This document shows, piece after piece, positions 9,901-19,096 of a DNA stretch of 20,112 nt. This DNA is from a virus. The DNA lies in IMG/VR virus record IMGVR_UViG_3300005435_000063, positions 1-20,112 of that record; one strand, given 5' to 3'. Each line of letters starts with the position of its first letter. Position 1 is the stretch's first letter. Made by a program: the position numbers and the translations under genes. The notes beneath the pieces were generated by a model. That model searched no databases. It had not been told where the DNA came from and saw only the letters and a program-made list of their open reading frames with translations.

Positions 9901-10611
9901 CTATTCTCCCGTGAGCCAGTTAAATGGTCGTCCACGTGACTGTGTACCCAAATCCGTTGCCAAATAAATTGGCTTAGAATTCATTTGTTTAATGTCAGCC
10001 ATAGAATCCATGGCCATTTGAATAATTTGAGGGTCGAGCTGTTTACCGTATTGAGGTGCGAGCCTTAAATCTAAATTGTATTGGATCGCCTCGAAAAACC
10101 CTGGAGGGAGGGTGATAGCCGTATCGAGTGTGGCGATTGATGTCAGGGGCTTCCAGGAATATAAAACAATTTTATTCGCAGCACCAGGCACGGGCCAAAG
10201 GTTGATTGTGGCCAGCGGAAATGAATTCTCCATGTAAAGAACTTGAGGGATGGCTGTTTGCGTGGACTTGATTGAAATCCTAGACCAATCGTCAATGTTA
10301 ATCACAGTTAAAGAGAATTCATTTAATTGAACGGTCCCCTGCACTTCGATTGTAGCGTCATCAATGATTTGAGGTCTTGTGGTGTTAAATGTCCCGCCAG
10401 TTCCAATCGTGTAGGACTGCGTCCCGATGACGAGTTGAAACTTTTCAACAACTCGGTCAAATATCATAAGACTTTTGGCGCTCCAGCGATCAAGCATATT
10501 ATTGATTATCGCCAGACCATCACTGGCCTCGGCAGCTGAAGGCGCTTCGCCGGCCGCAATGGCGCCGATGTCTTTTAAACTTAGTGTGATTAAATCGCGG
10601 GCTGTGGACAC
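9901..10611 (-). CDS. Head completion / tail accessory factor, P22 gp4-like
   Basis: 236 residues. The N-terminus, ARDLITLSLKDIGAIAAGE followed by P-x-x-A-E-A-x-DGLAIINNMLDRW, is the typical start of the gp4-like family that binds below the portal. The C-terminal half has INLWPVPGAANKIVLYSW, LPPGFFEAIQYNLDLRLAP. P22 gp4 is 166 residues; this longer form is common in other podoviruses. The start is GTG at 10611, supported by GGAGG 4 nt upstream inside the end of the glycosyltransferase gene, giving a 22-bp overlap. It directly precedes the gp10-like hub, as in P22. The role is closing the filled head and building the tail base; catalytic cell-wall activity, reported for P22 gp4, cannot be judged here. 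Confidence 0.8.
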   Translation of the reverse strand: MSTARDLITLSLKDIGAIAAGEAPSAAEASDGLAIINNMLDRWSAKSLMIFDRVVEKFQLVIGTQSYTIGTGGTFNTTRPQIIDDATIEVQGTVQLNEFSLTVINIDDWSRISIKSTQTAIPQVLYMENSFPLATINLWPVPGAANKIVLYSWKPLTSIATLDTAITLPPGFFEAIQYNLDLRLAPQYGKQLDPQIIQMAMDSMADIKQMNSKPIYLATDLGTQSRGRPFNWLTGE

Positions 10612-11273
10612 GTGGCCTCCGCTCTTGATTTAAGCCATTGGCCTATGTGGCCCTTATAGGGAACGGGGCTAAAATCCCAGTGCGTGATTTCTAGCTCTGG
10701 ATAAAGATAAAGTTTCCCGCCCGTCTCACGCCATTCATGAGCAAAAAAACTCTCTTCGCTATGCAGGCCATTTGCGAATGGGGTTTGAAAGTAACAATGA
10801 AGTGTGTGGCCAAAGTGCGTGAATTTCCGCTCGGGATGAGCCTTTTCTAAGATCTCAAATACTTTGCGGCTTAAACATACAAACCCAGCCGGTAAAACGC
10901 CCACCTCAATAAGTCCATGCTGATCGGCCCACAATTCATCTTGGGCTAACCAAGCAATGGGGTAGGCTTCCCCGTCTTGCTTGAATCTGTAGCACCCACC
11001 CACGTAATCGACTGGCATTCTGGATAATTTAACCAGCGCACCAACCTCAAAAGTCAGGTCTGAATCCAAATAAATGATTTTATCGCAATCCGATTCGAGA
11101 AATGCTTTGGCCAGTTGGTTTCGACCCATCGCTGGGTGTGAGCAATTGGGCAAGAATTCAACAAGTAACTCATCGCCAAGCTTGTTTGCGACATATTGCT
11201 CACTCATCAAACAGTTCACCGTTCGACAAGGGAGTTTTCCGTCATAAACAGGGATGGCGACGAGTATTTTCAC
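10590..11273 (-). CDS. GT-A fold glycosyltransferase inside the structural operon
   Basis: 227 residues. ILVAIPVYDG at the start is the GT-A nucleotide-binding strand, and IIYLDSDLTF at about 66-75 supplies the D-x-D motif (D70, D72) for metal and sugar nucleotide. CSHPAMGRNQLAKAFL (44-59) precedes it, and SEESFFAHEWRETGGKLYLY (172-191) is the acceptor-side motif common in phage and bacterial relatives. GTG 11273 directly follows the upstream TAA, with AAAGGG 6 nt before. Sugar donor and acceptor are unknown; it might modify a virion protein or host surface glycan. It sits between a small virion-type gene and the gp4-like gene, a place empty in P22 itself, so it reads as an accessory gene settled in the operon. 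Confidence 0.75.
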   Translation of the reverse strand: MKILVAIPVYDGKLPCRTVNCLMSEQYVANKLGDELLVEFLPNCSHPAMGRNQLAKAFLESDCDKIIYLDSDLTFEVGALVKLSRMPVDYVGGCYRFKQDGEAYPIAWLAQDELWADQHGLIEVGVLPAGFVCLSRKVFEILEKAHPERKFTHFGHTLHCYFQTPFANGLHSEESFFAHEWRETGGKLYLYPELEITHWDFSPVPYKGHIGQWLKSRAEATCPQPAI

Positions 11274-11585
11274 TTATGACCCTTTAATCAGGCCAAGAGT
11301 GACGAGCGCCGCTTGAACAGCGTTCGATTGTGCCGCCAGTGTCGCAATAGCGTTTGCGATAATGGCGCTGTTGTAAGTGCCGGTCAGAGTCAAAATGCCA
11401 TTGGTCGGCGCCGCAGCTCCGCCCGATGCATCGACTACTGTGGCCTGTGCCGCCAATGTAATTTGCGCGACCGGAGTTTTGCCGTAAAAAGCAATTTTGT
11501 CCGTAGTTGACTGACCGTAGTCAGACCCATCCGGGCTCAATACTGACTGGCGTTTGTTTGAAGTGGTTTCAGTTTGCAATCCCAT
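11274..11585 (-). CDS. Small podovirus virion-type protein, function unknown
   Basis: 103 residues. LSPDGSDYGQ followed by TDKIAFYGKTPVAQ near the N-terminus and a C-terminal helix ending in LVTLGLIKGS form a pattern I associate with small proteins encoded just after the coat gene in podoviruses. Centre is Ala/Thr/Gly-rich. A head-decoration or fibre role is possible but is an inference from position. ATG 11585 has AAGGAGA immediately before it, and a second AGGAG further up. It lies downstream of the coat terminator, so its expression depends on read-through or an unseen promoter. Confidence 0.55.
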   Translation of the reverse strand: MGLQTETTSNKRQSVLSPDGSDYGQSTTDKIAFYGKTPVAQITLAAQATVVDASGGAAAPTNGILTLTGTYNSAIIANAIATLAAQSNAVQAALVTLGLIKGS

Positions 11586-13857: not shown

Positions 13858-15996
13858 TTAGCTCCCCATGGGTGTACCTGGTGTGGGCCCGCCAGTAGGT
13901 TGTTGTTGTGGAGGTTGCGCAGCTGGAGGTTGTCCTCCGCCAGCATCCGAACTTTGATCTATTGGTTGGTTCATGCTGAGAAGGTCGAGGCGGTGTTGAA
14001 TCGCTCCGACCTCTTCTTTCAGCATTGTCTGGGCCTCTTGTGAGCCCATTTTGGCCATAGCGACTTCGATCTCGGCCTGGATCTGTGCGAACGCGATTCG
14101 TTCTTTCGAAGCCAGCTCCACAGATTTCGTTTCAATCATGTGAGTTTTTTCGTTCAGATGTTGCGTGAGCTGATCAATCATCTGTTGCATGTGCTGCATG
14201 GCTTGCTGAGCTTGAGGTGGCAAAGGCTGTTGATCTTTGTCGTCGGGCTCGGCCAATCCTGGTGGCAGCATCTTTTTAAGACGGTCGGCAATTTCTTGCG
14301 CACCTGACCAATCCATATTTCTCACCATCAAATCGCCCGCAACCTGCACGATTTGCGGATAAGCCTTAGTGAGCTCCATCATGGACGCCACGGCCTCCTC
14401 ACGCTTGGTTGCGTAACTGGGGCCGGATGAAACGTTGGCGTCATATTTCCCAACACCTAGATTGTGAATGACGTCTTTGCCGTTTTTCTGGAAAATCTGG
14501 TTGATCGCAACCATCTCGGCCTCACCACTTTCGCCAATAATGCGAATGGTCCGGGGCGTGTCGTAAACTTTCGGGATCAGATCCACAATAATTCGGCCGC
14601 CGTGTCTCATGGCTCTAGAGAGATTGTCGATGTAATGGAAATTAGTCCTCTCAGCTTGTGTGGTGCGCCTTTGAATGGCCGTGCCTGAAATTTCATTTGA
14701 ACGGTTACCGAGTGAGGCGTCGTAAATCCCCGTGGTCGCGTTCAAATCATCTTTGGATTGCATCCGGGCGCCCGTGATCGCCTGCACAGGTGCTTCGTAC
14801 ACGTTACGCGCCGGCGGTCCTTGAGGCGTGCCCGAGGCGTCTTTGGAATTGTATTCAAGATAAGCGTGATTTTTGATGTTGGCCGTTTTCCACTGGGCCT
14901 CGAAACCTTCAAACTGCCCAGCCGCACCGATGAACGGCGCCCTGGGAGCTAACGCGATGGTCTCGGTCTCAGCCGACGCCCAATAATTGTACATGCGCTG
15001 GGGATCTTTGGCGTGGCGGATAATGCCCTCAAGCACCCGTTTGCCATCGATATCAAGCTCATCACCTAAAACCGGGATGATCGGAATCCATTGACCCAGC
15101 CAATCGGTTTCCTCTAATTTTTCAACCCCATTCATCTTGCACCACTTAATGGCTGGGAGCGTGCTCTTGCGCTCAGCTACAATTTGAATAGCGTCGGGAT
15201 TCACTTGAATTGCGGCCTGGATATCGGGCCTTGCCATGTAGTCAGCCAAATCATCTTTGTTGATGACCTCTTTGCTGTTCATTTGCAAAAGCGTGACTTC
15301 TTTAAATGTTTTGTAAAAATATTCAGCCACACGGCACGAGGCTTTCGAGGCCCATCCCGGCGCGTGATCGCCGATAGATTCCCAATCGGTCATGCCTGAT
15401 AATTTGGATTCCGGATATTGAGCCTTGTAATCGTCGTGGCTCATGTCCTCAAAGACAAAGCCCCAGTTGGAATCGGATCCATCGGGCTCTTGATAATTTG
15501 GATCTAAATATACAGTGAAGGAATTGCGAATCCTTTTAATAAGGATTTCTTGATCAAAGGACTGGGGATCACAGAAATCGGTGATGACTCTGAAATAACC
15601 AAGCCCTTTGGTTGCGGCAGCTTCAAAGGCTGTGTCATAGGCCACATCGGCGTTGGAATTATATTCGATGTGTCTGATTAAGCCTTGGAGGACCTTTGCG
15701 GTTTCCACATCGGCGTTGTCATCGACCGGGTTGACCTTAATCGATGGCCTATTTTGGCGTTGGTCGTTTGTGACCTGGCGCAAATATTGTGGGAGCCTAT
15801 TGATGGTGAGACAAGGTCTGCGATCAATTTCCCTTGATTGCTTAACGTCTTGTGGCCATTGCTCGCCCGATCTGAACTTCAGATCATCCAGGGCATCGCG
15901 CCTAATTTCTAGCTCCGCATCCACTGCCAACTGAAACCGCTCGCGCGCGATTTTCAGAAACTCATCATCTGCTTTTTTGGTGTCGGTGCCGTTCAC
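13858..15996 (-). CDS. Portal protein, P22 gp1-like
   Basis: 712 residues, against 725 for P22 gp1. Near the start ALDDLKFRSGEQWPQDVKQ and RPCLTINRLPQYLRQVTNDQ are P22-type portal signatures. Also seen are GYFRVITDFCDPQSFDQEI, the IPIIPVLGDELDIDGKRV segment, DLNATTGIYDASLG, and SGTAIQRRTTQAER. The last 120 residues form a Gln-rich helix and Pro/Gly tail, as in the P22 portal barrel. The only in-frame start is GTG 15996, since TGA lies two codons upstream; there is no Shine-Dalgarno match before it. It is the first gene of its operon, facing the plus-strand ABA gene. It forms the dodecameric DNA entry ring. Confidence 0.92.
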   Translation of the reverse strand: MNGTDTKKADDEFLKIARERFQLAVDAELEIRRDALDDLKFRSGEQWPQDVKQSREIDRRPCLTINRLPQYLRQVTNDQRQNRPSIKVNPVDDNADVETAKVLQGLIRHIEYNSNADVAYDTAFEAAATKGLGYFRVITDFCDPQSFDQEILIKRIRNSFTVYLDPNYQEPDGSDSNWGFVFEDMSHDDYKAQYPESKLSGMTDWESIGDHAPGWASKASCRVAEYFYKTFKEVTLLQMNSKEVINKDDLADYMARPDIQAAIQVNPDAIQIVAERKSTLPAIKWCKMNGVEKLEETDWLGQWIPIIPVLGDELDIDGKRVLEGIIRHAKDPQRMYNYWASAETETIALAPRAPFIGAAGQFEGFEAQWKTANIKNHAYLEYNSKDASGTPQGPPARNVYEAPVQAITGARMQSKDDLNATTGIYDASLGNRSNEISGTAIQRRTTQAERTNFHYIDNLSRAMRHGGRIIVDLIPKVYDTPRTIRIIGESGEAEMVAINQIFQKNGKDVIHNLGVGKYDANVSSGPSYATKREEAVASMMELTKAYPQIVQVAGDLMVRNMDWSGAQEIADRLKKMLPPGLAEPDDKDQQPLPPQAQQAMQHMQQMIDQLTQHLNEKTHMIETKSVELASKERIAFAQIQAEIEVAMAKMGSQEAQTMLKEEVGAIQHRLDLLSMNQPIDQSSDAGGGQPPAAQPPQQQPTGGPTPGTPMGS

Positions 15997-16005
15997 TATT
16001 CAAAA

Positions 16006-16011
16006 GCTAAA
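16006..16011 (-). promoter_or_regulatory. Candidate -10-like element of the portal operon
   Basis: TTTAGC on the minus strand, 10 bp beyond the nearest GTTTA-type repeat and 9 nt before the portal GTG. A matching TTTAGA holds exactly the same position before terS. No -35 is seen; the repeat array occupies that place. Confidence 0.35.
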
Positions 16012-16021
16012 GCAAACAAAG

Positions 16022-16050
16022 GTTTACACTAGGTTTAAGAAATGTTTACC
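16022..16050. promoter_or_regulatory. Array of three GTTTA(A/C) repeats at 11-bp spacing (portal/ABA divergent region)
   Basis: Plus-strand repeats begin at 16022 (GTTTACA), 16033 (GTTTAAG) and 16044 (GTTTACC), exactly 11 bp apart, so all lie on one helix face. The array lies in the 138-bp gap between the diverging portal and ABA genes. The left edge is 26 nt from the portal start codon. The third copy could also serve as a -35 (TTTACC) for the plus-strand genes, with an extended -10 TGGTATGAG 18 bp further on. A second array of the same kind lies at 18812-18846. Confidence 0.65.
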
Positions 16051-16074
16051 TTGCGGGTCTGGGTCTGGTATGAG
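16045..16074 (+). promoter_or_regulatory. Candidate promoter for the ABA-sandwich gene pair
   Basis: TTTACC (16045-16050) and TATGAG (16069-16074) are 18 bp apart, the latter preceded by TGG as an extended -10. It would leave a leader of roughly 55 nt. The -35 is part of the repeat array, so binding there should control it. Confidence 0.4.
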
Positions 16075-16134
16075 TATGGGCAAGCGATAACGTTTCACGG
16101 CACGACACCGAAGTCTGTGCGCTAGGATGAAGTT

Positions 16135-16614
16135 ATGGATCTCCGCAAACTAGACGCCGCAATCGCTGAGCATGTGATGGGCTGGCGACGATTAACCTAC
16201 GCCCAGCACAATCCAGATAATAAGTATTTTGCTGAGAACACCCGTCTCACTTCATATTGGCATAATTCAGACAGGAAGGAGATGGAGCGCGCGGAAGTAT
16301 CTGACTGTGTAGATTGCGGGACCGATTTCCCGGCATTTGCACCATCCTCCGACATTGCGAGTGCGTGGGAGGTGGTGGAGAAAATGACTCTTGTGTCAAC
16401 TGGCGATGGATTTGCTCCAGTATTTGAATTAAACAATGAAAAGAAGAATTGGGATGAAAAAGAGTGGTGCGCAATGTTTTTTGATCGTTGGCATTGCGCT
16501 CACTGGCCAGTGGGGCAAGAACAGGTTCGTGCCCATGCAGATGCCGCACCACTAGCAATTTGCTTAGCAGCTCTAAAAGCAAATGGCATCGATGTTAGTG
16601 AGTGGGAGGGGTGA
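16135..16614 (+). CDS. Phage ABA-sandwich domain protein
   Basis: 159 residues. LDAAIAEHVMGWR at the start, PSSDIASAWEVVEKM at about 70-84 and AHADAAPLAICLAALKANGI at about 133-152 are the three blocks of the phage ABA-sandwich family, small accessory proteins of unknown function common in tailed phages. A Cys pair (DCVDCG, 58-62) is present. ATG 16135 has AGGA 7 nt upstream. It is on the opposite strand to the late genes, between terL and portal, and is coupled to the next gene by a TGATG overlap. In other phages this family is often seen among accessory, early-type genes; that timing is unproven here. Confidence 0.8.
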   Translation: MDLRKLDAAIAEHVMGWRRLTYAQHNPDNKYFAENTRLTSYWHNSDRKEMERAEVSDCVDCGTDFPAFAPSSDIASAWEVVEKMTLVSTGDGFAPVFELNNEKKNWDEKEWCAMFFDRWHCAHWPVGQEQVRAHADAAPLAICLAALKANGIDVSEWEG

Positions 16615-16880
16615 TGGAATCGAAATGGAAGGTCCATATTTTTGGAGATCCAGCCGGCACAGAATGGGAAATCAGCATTGTTCGCGAGGATAATAAAAAT
16701 GGCCAACAATCTTGGGGATGGTTTGGCGAGGATAAATTGTTGGTCTCACACAATGGCGGACCATGTCACTGGCCTCTTGCGCCAGGTCTTGGTGTGAAAA
16801 TGATTGAAATTGCGAACCAAGAATGTGCTCGGCTAAACGAGAGTCAGAAAAAGTTTTATGACATCCATCCGGTTCCCTGA
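16614..16880 (+). CDS. Hypothetical small protein overlapping the terL 3' end
   Basis: 88 residues from ATG 16614, which overlaps the stop of the ABA gene and has GGAGGGG just before it; a GTG at 16602 in frame is less likely. I do not recognise a family. It is Trp-rich (KWKVHIFGD, EWEISIVRED, SWGWFGEDKLLVSHN, CHWPLAPG), with a short C-terminal helix (GVKMIEIANQECARLNESQK). It looks like a small cytosolic alpha/beta protein. The last 25 bp overlap the end of terL on the other strand, so the two coding regions are antisense there. No terminator is seen between the converging genes. Confidence 0.65.
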   Translation: MESKWKVHIFGDPAGTEWEISIVREDNKNGQQSWGWFGEDKLLVSHNGGPCHWPLAPGLGVKMIEIANQECARLNESQKKFYDIHPVP

Positions 16881-18370
16881 CTGCCCATCGTGTATTGCCT
16901 CACCTCAGTCTGCTGCACCACAATCTTTGGAAACTGCGCACCCAAGGCTGGATCTAAAATCCTAGCCCGGCAATCCAGCATGTCGTCATGCACTGATACA
17001 GGGAACGCCAAATATTCATCCTCAATAAAAGTTTGAATATAGTCGATTCGCCTTCCCTCATAGTTCACAAAGTATAAAATCTTGGGCATGTAGAATCGAC
17101 CTTGCTCATAGATTGGCACAAGCCTTTGGATGCGGTCCTCTTTGGCGATCTGCCCACCGAGCTCAATGATATTGAATCTGTAATTCTCCTGCTCCATGAC
17201 ATATTTCATGTGCTCAACATCGGATTGCATGCCGTAGTGCTCATAGCCCACAGCTTTTGGGTTGTGTTTACGGTGGAGTTCAAACAGCTTCGATGTACGT
17301 TGGGTGAGATTAAGTCTATCTCTCACCGCATCGATCAAATAATAATTATTGTCAGGGGCAAGGGCAATCACTTCCATTACAGTGTAGTCTGAGCTTTTCT
17401 TTTTAGCTGAAGCTGGGTCCACGATGATGTACACATTCCATTTGGATGTGTCTTTGATCACCTCATAATATTTAAGCCATTCTTCTTTAAAACCCATGGC
17501 TTTATCGGCAACGGGATCTTGGAGCATTTGTGTGCCAAATGTGTAGGGCCCCATATCCCGGCGCTTGATGAACAAATCGTCTTTGGAGAATAATACGGGC
17601 TCACCGTCCATTTTGCCATTGTGTGTGGCTGGATAAATGCGTGGCACGACCGAGCCTCGCTCCATCATAGTCTTGTAGGTGTCATTGGCGTGGTATCTGG
17701 TGCCAATGTACCTTTTATGCCCACCTTGCGAGCCAAGGTTGAGTGATAATTCCCATGCGGCCGTGACCTTTTTAATTTGATCCGTTGTGGTGACCGATTC
17801 CCTTGTGACCACGTCATCGTATACGCAGATCTTGAAATGTTTCGATGTGGGCTGGCCATCAACCAAACCCCAAGCCTCAACACTTGCTTCCTTGGGATTG
17901 GTCTTGCGCTTCACAATGAGTCCAGAATCTAGTGACCATTTCTGTGATTCAGCTCTAGGGTTTTGATATAAAACATCGGGGAATAAGCTTTTAAGGAAAT
18001 TATTGGATTCGAGTTCGCGCTTGATTTGCTCTAAGAACCCTTTGGCGATAGGTCTAGTGTGACTGAATATGGCGATGGTCGCGCCATCTGGATCACCCAA
18101 CAAATCTTGAATCGATTTGCCAAACGTGATGATGGTCGATTTGTAATGCTCACGTGCCCACAGATCTAAATGCCCGTTGGGATTGAGCTCCACCTCACGA
18201 CATCTGTCATAGAGCCAATCGCGGTCAATATCGCGGCGTTTGCAACCTATGGTGAGCAGGAAAAATAAATCCTCGAGGCATAATCGCCTGAGCGCCACAT
18301 GGTCCTCGGCCCCAATCACATCGGCATAGAGGCCATTTGATTGCAATCGCGTGAAGCCTTGGCAGATCAA
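16856..18370 (-). CDS. Terminase large subunit
   Basis: 504 residues, against 499 in P22 gp2. The Walker A-like AREHYKST is at residues 72-79, Walker B ICVYDD at 181-186 and the coupling motif GTRYH at 223-227. The RNase H-like nuclease follows with IIVDPA (D318), YEHYG (E377) and HDDMLD (462-467). It cuts and pumps concatemeric DNA into the procapsid. The start is TTG 18370, overlapping the terS stop as TTGA; AAAGG lies 6 nt upstream and no ATG occurs before the ATPase motifs, so TTG is well supported. Its 3' end overlaps the plus-strand 88-residue gene by 25 bp. Confidence 0.95.
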   Translation of the reverse strand: MICQGFTRLQSNGLYADVIGAEDHVALRRLCLEDLFFLLTIGCKRRDIDRDWLYDRCREVELNPNGHLDLWAREHYKSTIITFGKSIQDLLGDPDGATIAIFSHTRPIAKGFLEQIKRELESNNFLKSLFPDVLYQNPRAESQKWSLDSGLIVKRKTNPKEASVEAWGLVDGQPTSKHFKICVYDDVVTRESVTTTDQIKKVTAAWELSLNLGSQGGHKRYIGTRYHANDTYKTMMERGSVVPRIYPATHNGKMDGEPVLFSKDDLFIKRRDMGPYTFGTQMLQDPVADKAMGFKEEWLKYYEVIKDTSKWNVYIIVDPASAKKKSSDYTVMEVIALAPDNNYYLIDAVRDRLNLTQRTSKLFELHRKHNPKAVGYEHYGMQSDVEHMKYVMEQENYRFNIIELGGQIAKEDRIQRLVPIYEQGRFYMPKILYFVNYEGRRIDYIQTFIEDEYLAFPVSVHDDMLDCRARILDPALGAQFPKIVVQQTEVRQYTMGSQGTGWMS

Positions 18371-18786
18371 GATTCGCCTTTGAGTTGTTTTAATCTATCG
18401 TCGAGTTCAATCTTTTCGGGCGCCGCCGGATGGTTATTGACGACAACATCCACTTCATCTGGCTGTTTGTCGCGCCAGCCGAATCTGTTTTTCATATTGA
18501 AAATCCAGACCGAGGCGTTGAGTGAACGTGAGCTAGAACCGCCGCCATGTTCGGAGTCTGATTTGTTGACTATGTGGTCGATGCCAAGCTGTTCCCAAAA
18601 AATACGGCACCGGGCCGTGCCGATCTCTTTGGCGTTTAGAAAGTCTGGGTTTTGCTCAAACCAACTATAAAGCGTCTTTTTGGTTACGCCGACAAGACCG
18701 GCAAAAGCCTCAAAGCTTAGACCCTTTTCCATGTGTTCGATGAGCATTTCGCAGAATTTAGCTTTGTATGCGGTTGGCCTTCCCAT
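18367..18786 (-). CDS. Terminase small subunit
   Basis: 139 residues. Residues 12-46 form a helix-turn-helix (LIEHMEKGLSFEAFAGLVGV, then TKKTLYSWFEQNPDF) and 90-108 have NASVWIFNMKNRFGWRDKQ, both standard in TerS proteins of this type. The end is acidic/proline-rich, probably contacting TerL. It recognises the packaging site and starts cutting. ATG 18786 is directly abutted by GAGGG, too close for normal pairing. First gene of its unit, diverging from the ribbon-helix-helix gene across a repeat array. Overlaps terL by TTGA. Confidence 0.88.
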   Translation of the reverse strand: MGRPTAYKAKFCEMLIEHMEKGLSFEAFAGLVGVTKKTLYSWFEQNPDFLNAKEIGTARCRIFWEQLGIDHIVNKSDSEHGGGSSSRSLNASVWIFNMKNRFGWRDKQPDEVDVVVNNHPAAPEKIELDDRLKQLKGES

Positions 18787-18795
18787 CCCTCTGAA

Positions 18796-18801
18796 TCTAA
18801 A
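18796..18801 (-). promoter_or_regulatory. Candidate -10-like element of the terS-terL unit
   Basis: TTTAGA on the minus strand, 10 bp from the GTTTA array and 9 nt before the terS ATG, matching TTTAGC before portal at the same offsets. An alternative -10, TATATG at 18806-18811, is closer to consensus but is not conserved at portal. Confidence 0.35.
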
Positions 18802-18811
18802 TGCCCATATA

Positions 18812-18856
18812 GTTTAAGGAAGGTTTACATTAAGTTTAAGTTTACAAGCCTTAAAC
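18812..18856. promoter_or_regulatory. Array of GTTTA(A/C) repeats (terS/RHH divergent region)
   Basis: Plus-strand copies begin at 18812 (GTTTAAG), 18823 (GTTTACA) and 18834 (GTTTAAG), 11 bp apart. An extra GTTTACA begins at 18840, and an inverted copy CCTTAAAC is at 18849-18856, a perfect 8-bp match to GTTTAAGG at 18812-18819. The array spans the -35 of the plus-strand promoter and ends 26 nt from the terS ATG, exactly as the other array does from portal. Confidence 0.7.
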
Positions 18857-18868
18857 CTGACTTATACT
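18841..18868 (+). promoter_or_regulatory. Promoter of the ribbon-helix-helix gene, probably giving a leaderless mRNA
   Basis: TTTACA (18841-18846) and TATACT (18863-18868) are 16 bp apart, each one mismatch or two from consensus. The ATG begins only 7 nt after the -10, so transcription would start at or next to the start codon. Confidence 0.6.
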
Positions 18869-18874
18869 TCTGGT

Positions 18875-19096
18875 ATGGGTGAGCTCCTGGACAACATTAT
18901 CGCCAATTTCGACCCGACAAGCGCATCCGAAAAAGAGCGCGTGCACGACGGGAAGCCCTTAACCGTATGGGTTCCACTGGAATATAAAGAGAAATTTGAT
19001 TTGATCCAGGCCAAATGCGGGCGCAAATTTAGCAAAACTCTGAGAGAAATTATCAAATCCGCCATCGACCGCGTGCATATCGACGAGGCCGTTTGA
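18875..19096 (+). CDS. Ribbon-helix-helix (Arc/CopG-type) DNA-binding protein
   Basis: 73 residues. KPLTVWVPLEYKEKFDLIQA (about 27-46) gives the beta strand and first helix; SKTLREIIKSAIDRV (about 53-67) the second helix of a ribbon-helix-helix fold. Residues 1-26 form a separate acidic/helical arm. Such proteins are dimeric transcription regulators that insert a beta ribbon in the major groove. It faces away from terS across the GTTTA array and is followed by a terminator, so it is a single-gene unit. ATG 18875 has no ribosome site; a GTG near residue 23 is an alternative start that would still keep the whole fold. Autoregulation through the neighbouring array is likely but inferred. Confidence 0.7.
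   Translation: MGELLDNIIANFDPTSASEKERVHDGKPLTVWVPLEYKEKFDLIQAKCGRKFSKTLREIIKSAIDRVHIDEAV

Follow-up and report, generated by a model that had tools for sequence, protein, structure and literature searches.

Matched repeat arrays at the late operons of a P22-portal phage group, candidate operators of a small ribbon-helix-helix-like protein

Arc and Mnt of phage P22 are phage-encoded repressors of the ribbon-helix-helix (RHH) type, which act in the immI region and not at the small terminase (terS), portal or tail operons. In the pho box, 11-bp direct repeats stand in place of a -35 element just upstream of the -10, and PhoB is a winged-helix response regulator. AmrZ of Pseudomonas aeruginosa, of which Arc and Mnt are named as kin, is an RHH protein serving as both activator and repressor, it activates algD from 282 bp upstream, and only AmrZ and NikR are named as RHH proteins able to do both (PMC3325190). 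The sites of Omega (ParB), from plasmid pSM19035, are contiguous 7-bp WATCACW heptads in 7-10 copies (PMC9499535), and the C protein of phage Mu is a late activator of four promoters, lys, I, P and mom (PMC4461284). Here we analyzed a stretch of 20,112 bases of viral DNA, IMG/VR record IMGVR_UViG_3300005435_000063 (hereafter the window), in which two arrays of short repeats precede terS and the portal gene. We argue that these arrays may well be operators of a 73-amino acid RHH-like protein encoded next to terS.

An initial annotation, made from the letters of the window, had described two phased GTTTA arrays, each 26 nt from a minus-strand start codon and each accompanied at the same offset by TTTAG(A/C)TT, and all of this held on re-examination. 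The pattern GTTTAMN5GTTTAMN5GTTTAM matches without mismatch at 16022-16049 (GTTTACACTAGGTTTAAGAAATGTTTAC) and 18812-18839 (GTTTAAGGAAGGTTTACATTAAGTTTAA), its only two perfect occurrences in the window. From the near edge of the array to the start codon there are 26 nt at both the portal gene (GTG, 15996) and terS (ATG, 18786), and the hexamers TAGCTT (portal) and TAGATT (terS) both begin 12 nt past the array end. With three mismatches allowed, the window has three matches, whereas dinucleotide shuffles predict 0.04, and a count of three was not attained in any of 100 such shuffles. The third match, with its three mismatches, carries the terS array on over the promoter of the gene that starts divergently at 18875 and is likely to be autoregulatory for that gene.

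16022..16049, minus strand: candidate portal operator array, GTAAAC-N5-TTAAAC-N5-GTAAAC on the portal strand; perfect pattern match, matched in relatives
18812..18839, minus strand: candidate terS operator array, in the divergent gap between terS and the RHH gene; perfect pattern match, matched in relatives
18840..18867, minus strand: imperfect array continuation over the RHH core promoter; three-mismatch match, putative regulatory role

Relatives were gathered by a search with the large terminase gene terL, which gave 38 loci, and further loci came from an alignment search and from scanning bacterial genomes. Twenty-five contigs, the window included, form a group by their common P22-type portal and a terL identity of at least 65%. 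In 16 of these, the window being one, we detected the RHH gene, which in every case lies upstream of the terminase genes on the other strand, across a gap of 79-103 nt; several members in which it was not detected are short contigs ending before that position. Within a genome the portal array and the array beside the RHH gene have a common motif, while between genomes the motif differs, being GTAAAC, CTATAG, CTTTAA, GTTAA or a 20-bp palindrome. In 15 genomes, own pairs of arrays scored 14.2 and mixed pairs 8.6, and in a comparison of 18 genomes, from which the -10 and the start codon were excluded, 14.6 against 7.5 between genomes (permutation p ≤ 5e-6) and 7.1 in a mononucleotide-shuffle control. 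In an unbiased whole-locus scan the region upstream of the RHH gene was the best match to the portal array in eight genomes (the window, L041, L092, L010, L009, L111, L042 and L174), and short matches of lower rank were seen in seven others (L013, L178, L020, L051, L044, L040 and L043). The portal arrays of L046 and L049, by their best match, and of L112, by its second-best, led to replacement RHH genes; in these three genomes another RHH subfamily holds the role, again with a matching array. About 15 motif changes are needed on the terL tree, on which the CTATAG, CTTTAA, GTAAAC and GTTAA classes are each scattered; this tree has 26 rows and 8 of 23 inner branches well supported, and the classes were assigned by eye. 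Three different motifs, each best matched in its own genome, occur within the single well-supported clade of L010, L013 and L111. Such matched turnover points to a shared phage-encoded trans-acting factor and is not explained by a host factor, and it strongly supports the earlier suggestion that one regulator serves packaging and head genes together. Among relatives with intact genes, the sole member without the repeats was L047, which also lacks the RHH gene, has the consensus -35 TTGACA before its portal gene and possibly uses a different late regulator.

A scan of all viral contigs for three CTATAG copies at 11-bp spacing gave 68 stretches, 67 of them unrelated, and recovered from the group only the contig of L051; the motif alone is therefore not diagnostic. 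Its unrelated occurrences (such as those in L264, L269, L274, L279, L291, L299, L300, L306 and L320) often adjoin the 3' end of an apparent tRNA gene, called by eye.

A third copy of the array stands before a tail-fibre gene in three longer records, at about the same spacing. These copies, at 20286 in L041, 26472 in L042 and 2265 in L092, scored 25, 20.5 and 20 respectively against a background mean near 10 (standard deviation 2); the tail-fibre genes were named from gene order and resemblance to the tail genes of the window, not from a family search. Of these records L041 stands closest to the window, and the distance from array to -10 is the same at each of its three promoters. We saw no third site in the window, L044, L051, L013, L040, L043, L178 or L112, some of these records being incomplete, and in the window and L112 the corresponding tail gene abuts the preceding gene and leaves no room for one. 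This tail site, like the likely regulator gene at 18875-19096, goes beyond what the initial annotation had proposed.

The promoter elements of the window which correspond to these arrays are as follows.

18841..18846, plus strand: RHH promoter -35, TTTACA; 5 of 6 match, spacer 16
18863..18868, plus strand: RHH promoter -10, TATACT, 6 nt before the ATG; predicted leaderless
18794..18799, minus strand: terS promoter -10-like hexamer, TAGATT; predicted leaderless
16004..16009, minus strand: portal promoter -10-like hexamer, TAGCTT; predicted leaderless, GTG start

When the promoters of the group were aligned by their start codons alone, xAxxxT was found at -12 in 84% of RHH, 88% of terS and 71% of portal starts, against a background of 12-15% averaged over positions. 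The start codons of all three genes lie 6-7 nt past the -10-like hexamer and, given a hexamer so near the start codon, their mRNAs should be leaderless. A -35 with at least 4 of 6 matches was present at 68% of RHH promoters but at only 18% of terS and 17% of portal promoters (14-16% in shuffles); thus the terS and portal promoters have no -35 above chance, and the RHH promoters do. The -10 is weakest at portal, with a mean score of 3.1 of 6 against 4.2 of 6 at RHH (p 6e-5). Aligned on the -10, both the terS and the portal sets show AT-rich cores that recur with an 11-bp period, at about -16, -27 and -37; the array ends 12 (±1) nt from the -10, and terS and portal have a common register in 14 of 16 genomes when shifts by whole units are allowed. 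The array takes the position of a -35 at a fixed distance from the -10, which in layout is that of a class II-type activated promoter, and the aligned promoters bear out the idea that direct repeats upstream of the -10 take the place of a -35. Portal starts of the relatives are mostly GTG, often in the context CATTGAAATGTGG, with no obvious Shine-Dalgarno motif.

The likely regulator is encoded divergently from terS.

18875..19096, plus strand: gene for a 73-amino acid RHH-like DNA-binding protein, likely regulator; 15 relatives have a homologue in this position

Its product carries a ribbon-helix-helix pattern (KPLTVWVPLEYKEKFDLIQAKCGRKFSKTLREIIKSAID) and is probably an RHH protein, a well-motivated assignment of a predicted fold. 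Monomer models, with a predicted local distance difference test score (pLDDT) of 75 and 81, contain an extended stretch and then helices at 34-47 and 50-70, in the order and length expected of an RHH protein. Two of 12 homologues gave a weak match to a PHROG of Arc-like repressors, the best at 0.004. The replacement proteins of L112, L046 and L049 resemble RHH families more clearly, with matches to RHH_1, Antitox_RHH and FitA-like RHH below cut-off; they belong to a different subfamily, with no kinship seen to the set of the window protein. Thr occupies the position just before the predicted DNA-contact strand in all five CTATAG genomes with a known RHH gene and in none of 11 others (Fisher p 2e-4, in a test that ignores kinship, to which the correlation is partly due). 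Nothing was found when close relatives were sought with the RHH protein alone, or conserved blocks with its alignment. Among cultured phages there was no RHH match, and terL identity was below 30% among the matches listed; that collection therefore yielded no close annotated relative.

We propose, with a probability of about 0.58, that the arrays are operators of the RHH-like protein, which would stand in for the -35 as an activator at the promoters of the packaging, head and tail genes. One RHH dimer would bind each near-palindromic hexamer (GTTTAC or GTTTAA in the window; CTATAG, CTTTAA or GTTAA in relatives), and the 11-bp spacing would stack the dimers on one face of the helix. The array lies at about -25 to -53 of terS, portal and, in some relatives, the tail-fibre operon, ending 12 nt before the -10-like hexamer, where the bound protein could substitute for the -35 as a class II-like activator and turn packaging, head and tail genes on together; the activating sign is inferred from the lack of a -35 at these late promoters. 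The RHH gene's own -35/-10 promoter would probably be repressed by the bound protein. A further step, to which we give slightly less than even odds, is that the RHH protein is a true late activator at leaderless promoters with a private operator code in each lineage, regulator and sites having switched in concert repeatedly, sometimes by exchange for a different RHH subfamily. If this is so, the private code would insulate each phage's late control from that of co-infecting phages.

Several observations weigh against our proposal. The RHH assignment of the window protein consists of a sequence pattern and weak family matches: the protein itself matched neither Pfam nor NCBIfam, nor any PHROG at 0.1. 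The models, which are of monomers, found no RHH chain and no other match among PDB and viral structures (Foldseek, VIA), a result that speaks neither for nor against the fold because the RHH ribbon forms only in the dimer. The array matches are short in L020, L178 and L013, the common terS-versus-portal register is broken in L013 and L042, and the -10 positions come from positional conservation with either -12 or -13 allowed. Moreover, the same operators could serve the RHH protein as a repressor, made early and bound over the -35 regions of its own gene and of the terS and portal genes, with the late genes silent in the lysogen or in early infection until it is removed. Most characterised RHH regulators do repress (PMC3325190), at least one member of the group, L112, is an integrated prophage, and the window array overlaps the RHH core promoter. 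We nevertheless consider repression of the late genes less likely than their activation. Their promoters, with no recognisable -35 and weak -10s, would offer little basal activity to repress, and the near-fixed 12-nt spacing from array to -10 is not needed for steric occlusion. Lack of a -35, a weak -10 and a fixed helical register together make up the layout of an activator replacing the -35; L047, which has no array and no RHH gene but a consensus -35, is a single but apt exception that fits activation. We prefer the activator over the repressor by about two to one.

It is improbable that the arrays are bound by some other phage- or host-encoded regulator instead of the neighbouring RHH protein. 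The window is a 20-kb fragment whose remaining genome is unseen, early and late-regulator regions falling outside it, but the array-linked gene is the RHH gene even where its subfamily has been replaced, and a host factor cannot account for some 15 motif changes among related phages, matched at both sites each time. Phage packaging sites are often near or within terS, and one array adjoins this gene; even so, DNA-level packaging elements such as terminase recognition sites would hardly occur in 2-3 copies per genome at a fixed distance from a -10-like hexamer and the start of a structural operon, including that of a tail-fibre gene, and we regard this explanation as very improbable. Chance similarity of AT-rich DNA would find some comfort in the unspecific CTATAG triplet, 67 of 68 viral stretches with it being unrelated, but the 0.04 matches expected in the window, the permutation p ≤ 5e-6 and the shuffle control (7.1 versus 14.6) leave it a negligible chance.

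The genes around the arrays were assigned as follows.

18367..18786, minus strand: terS, small terminase subunit; PHROG 309, 3.3e-16
16856..18370, minus strand: terL, large terminase subunit; PHROG 38, 4.5e-56
13858..15996, minus strand: P22-type portal protein, first gene of the head operon; PF16510, 6.5e-190
16135..16880, plus strand: Phage_ABA_S domain gene and a 92-amino acid open reading frame, opposite portal; PF18066, 7.5e-14

The Phage_ABA_S gene and the 92-amino acid frame of the window lie between terL and portal; the ABA gene is also present in L014, L015 and L028 and was detected in no other relative. The initial annotation had supposed that the regulator might act on the opposite genes too. 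This stands for the RHH gene, whose promoter is overlaid by the imperfect array, but control of the genes opposite portal was rejected because several relatives lack those genes and retain the array; the two genes at 16135-16880 are probably passengers. In L041, L042, L018 and L021 the array lies directly behind terL with no divergent gene there, so the divergent layout at portal appears incidental. Three relatives have a split terL (L035:1588-3810, L036:6001-8205 and L021:1253-3754), in L035 and L036 with an insert of about 740 bp near residue 280, and no Rfam intron match was seen at the gathering threshold. A Fis-like helix-turn-helix gene (L047:8446-8646) lies upstream of terS in L047. The temperate member L112 is integrated in a Bdellovibrionaceae contig between ordinary chromosomal genes (flanks L347 and L348, their genes named by eye and not from family searches), with its terL at 10001-11509 and an integrase-like gene at its edge (L348:11626-12783). 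L111 lies on a contig of a second Bdellovibrionaceae genome, and the phage group may infect predatory bacteria.

What emerges is a candidate system by which an uncultured group of P22-portal phages, two members of which come from Bdellovibrionaceae genomes, may control its late genes. The literature library we searched held no paper on late regulation in this group, on a phage RHH late activator or on Bdellovibrio phages of this kind, and no description of the present combination with its matched, repeated change of regulator and sites. Activation by the RHH protein, if real, would add a mechanism seldom met among such proteins (PMC3325190). The repeated matched turnover is also a natural data set on how a DNA-binding protein can change its specificity together with every one of its sites.

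Compared with the known systems, the resemblance to a PhoB box noted in the initial annotation survives as an analogy of layout and goes no further: no response regulator was present among the ten window proteins scanned, the motif varies from phage to phage, and the arrays covary with an RHH gene. With Arc and Mnt the system would share a phage-encoded regulator of RHH type; it differs in its targets, and the Arc-like PHROG matches of the window family are weak. The initial annotation further proposed that the control would differ from the single-promoter, antiterminated late operon of P22, a contrast that may apply to the window. AmrZ is similar as a small RHH-type regulator of several promoters which represses its own gene and activates others; however, the sites in the window stand in for the -35 at a fixed spacing and would serve phage late operons, and no sequence kinship is shown. 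Omega likewise forms an array of RHH dimers on short repeats overlapping several promoters including its own, whereas the present group has 6-bp near-palindromes at 11-bp spacing in 2-4 copies; no partition genes were seen in the window. Mu C, which to our knowledge is not an RHH protein, is alike as one small phage protein that binds beside the promoter and serves several late promoters whose -10 and -35 depart from the consensus, and differs in that the late promoters of the window group appear leaderless, with a -10 only. The parts of the proposed system are of known kinds, namely multi-promoter RHH regulators, one-protein late activators and leaderless genes.

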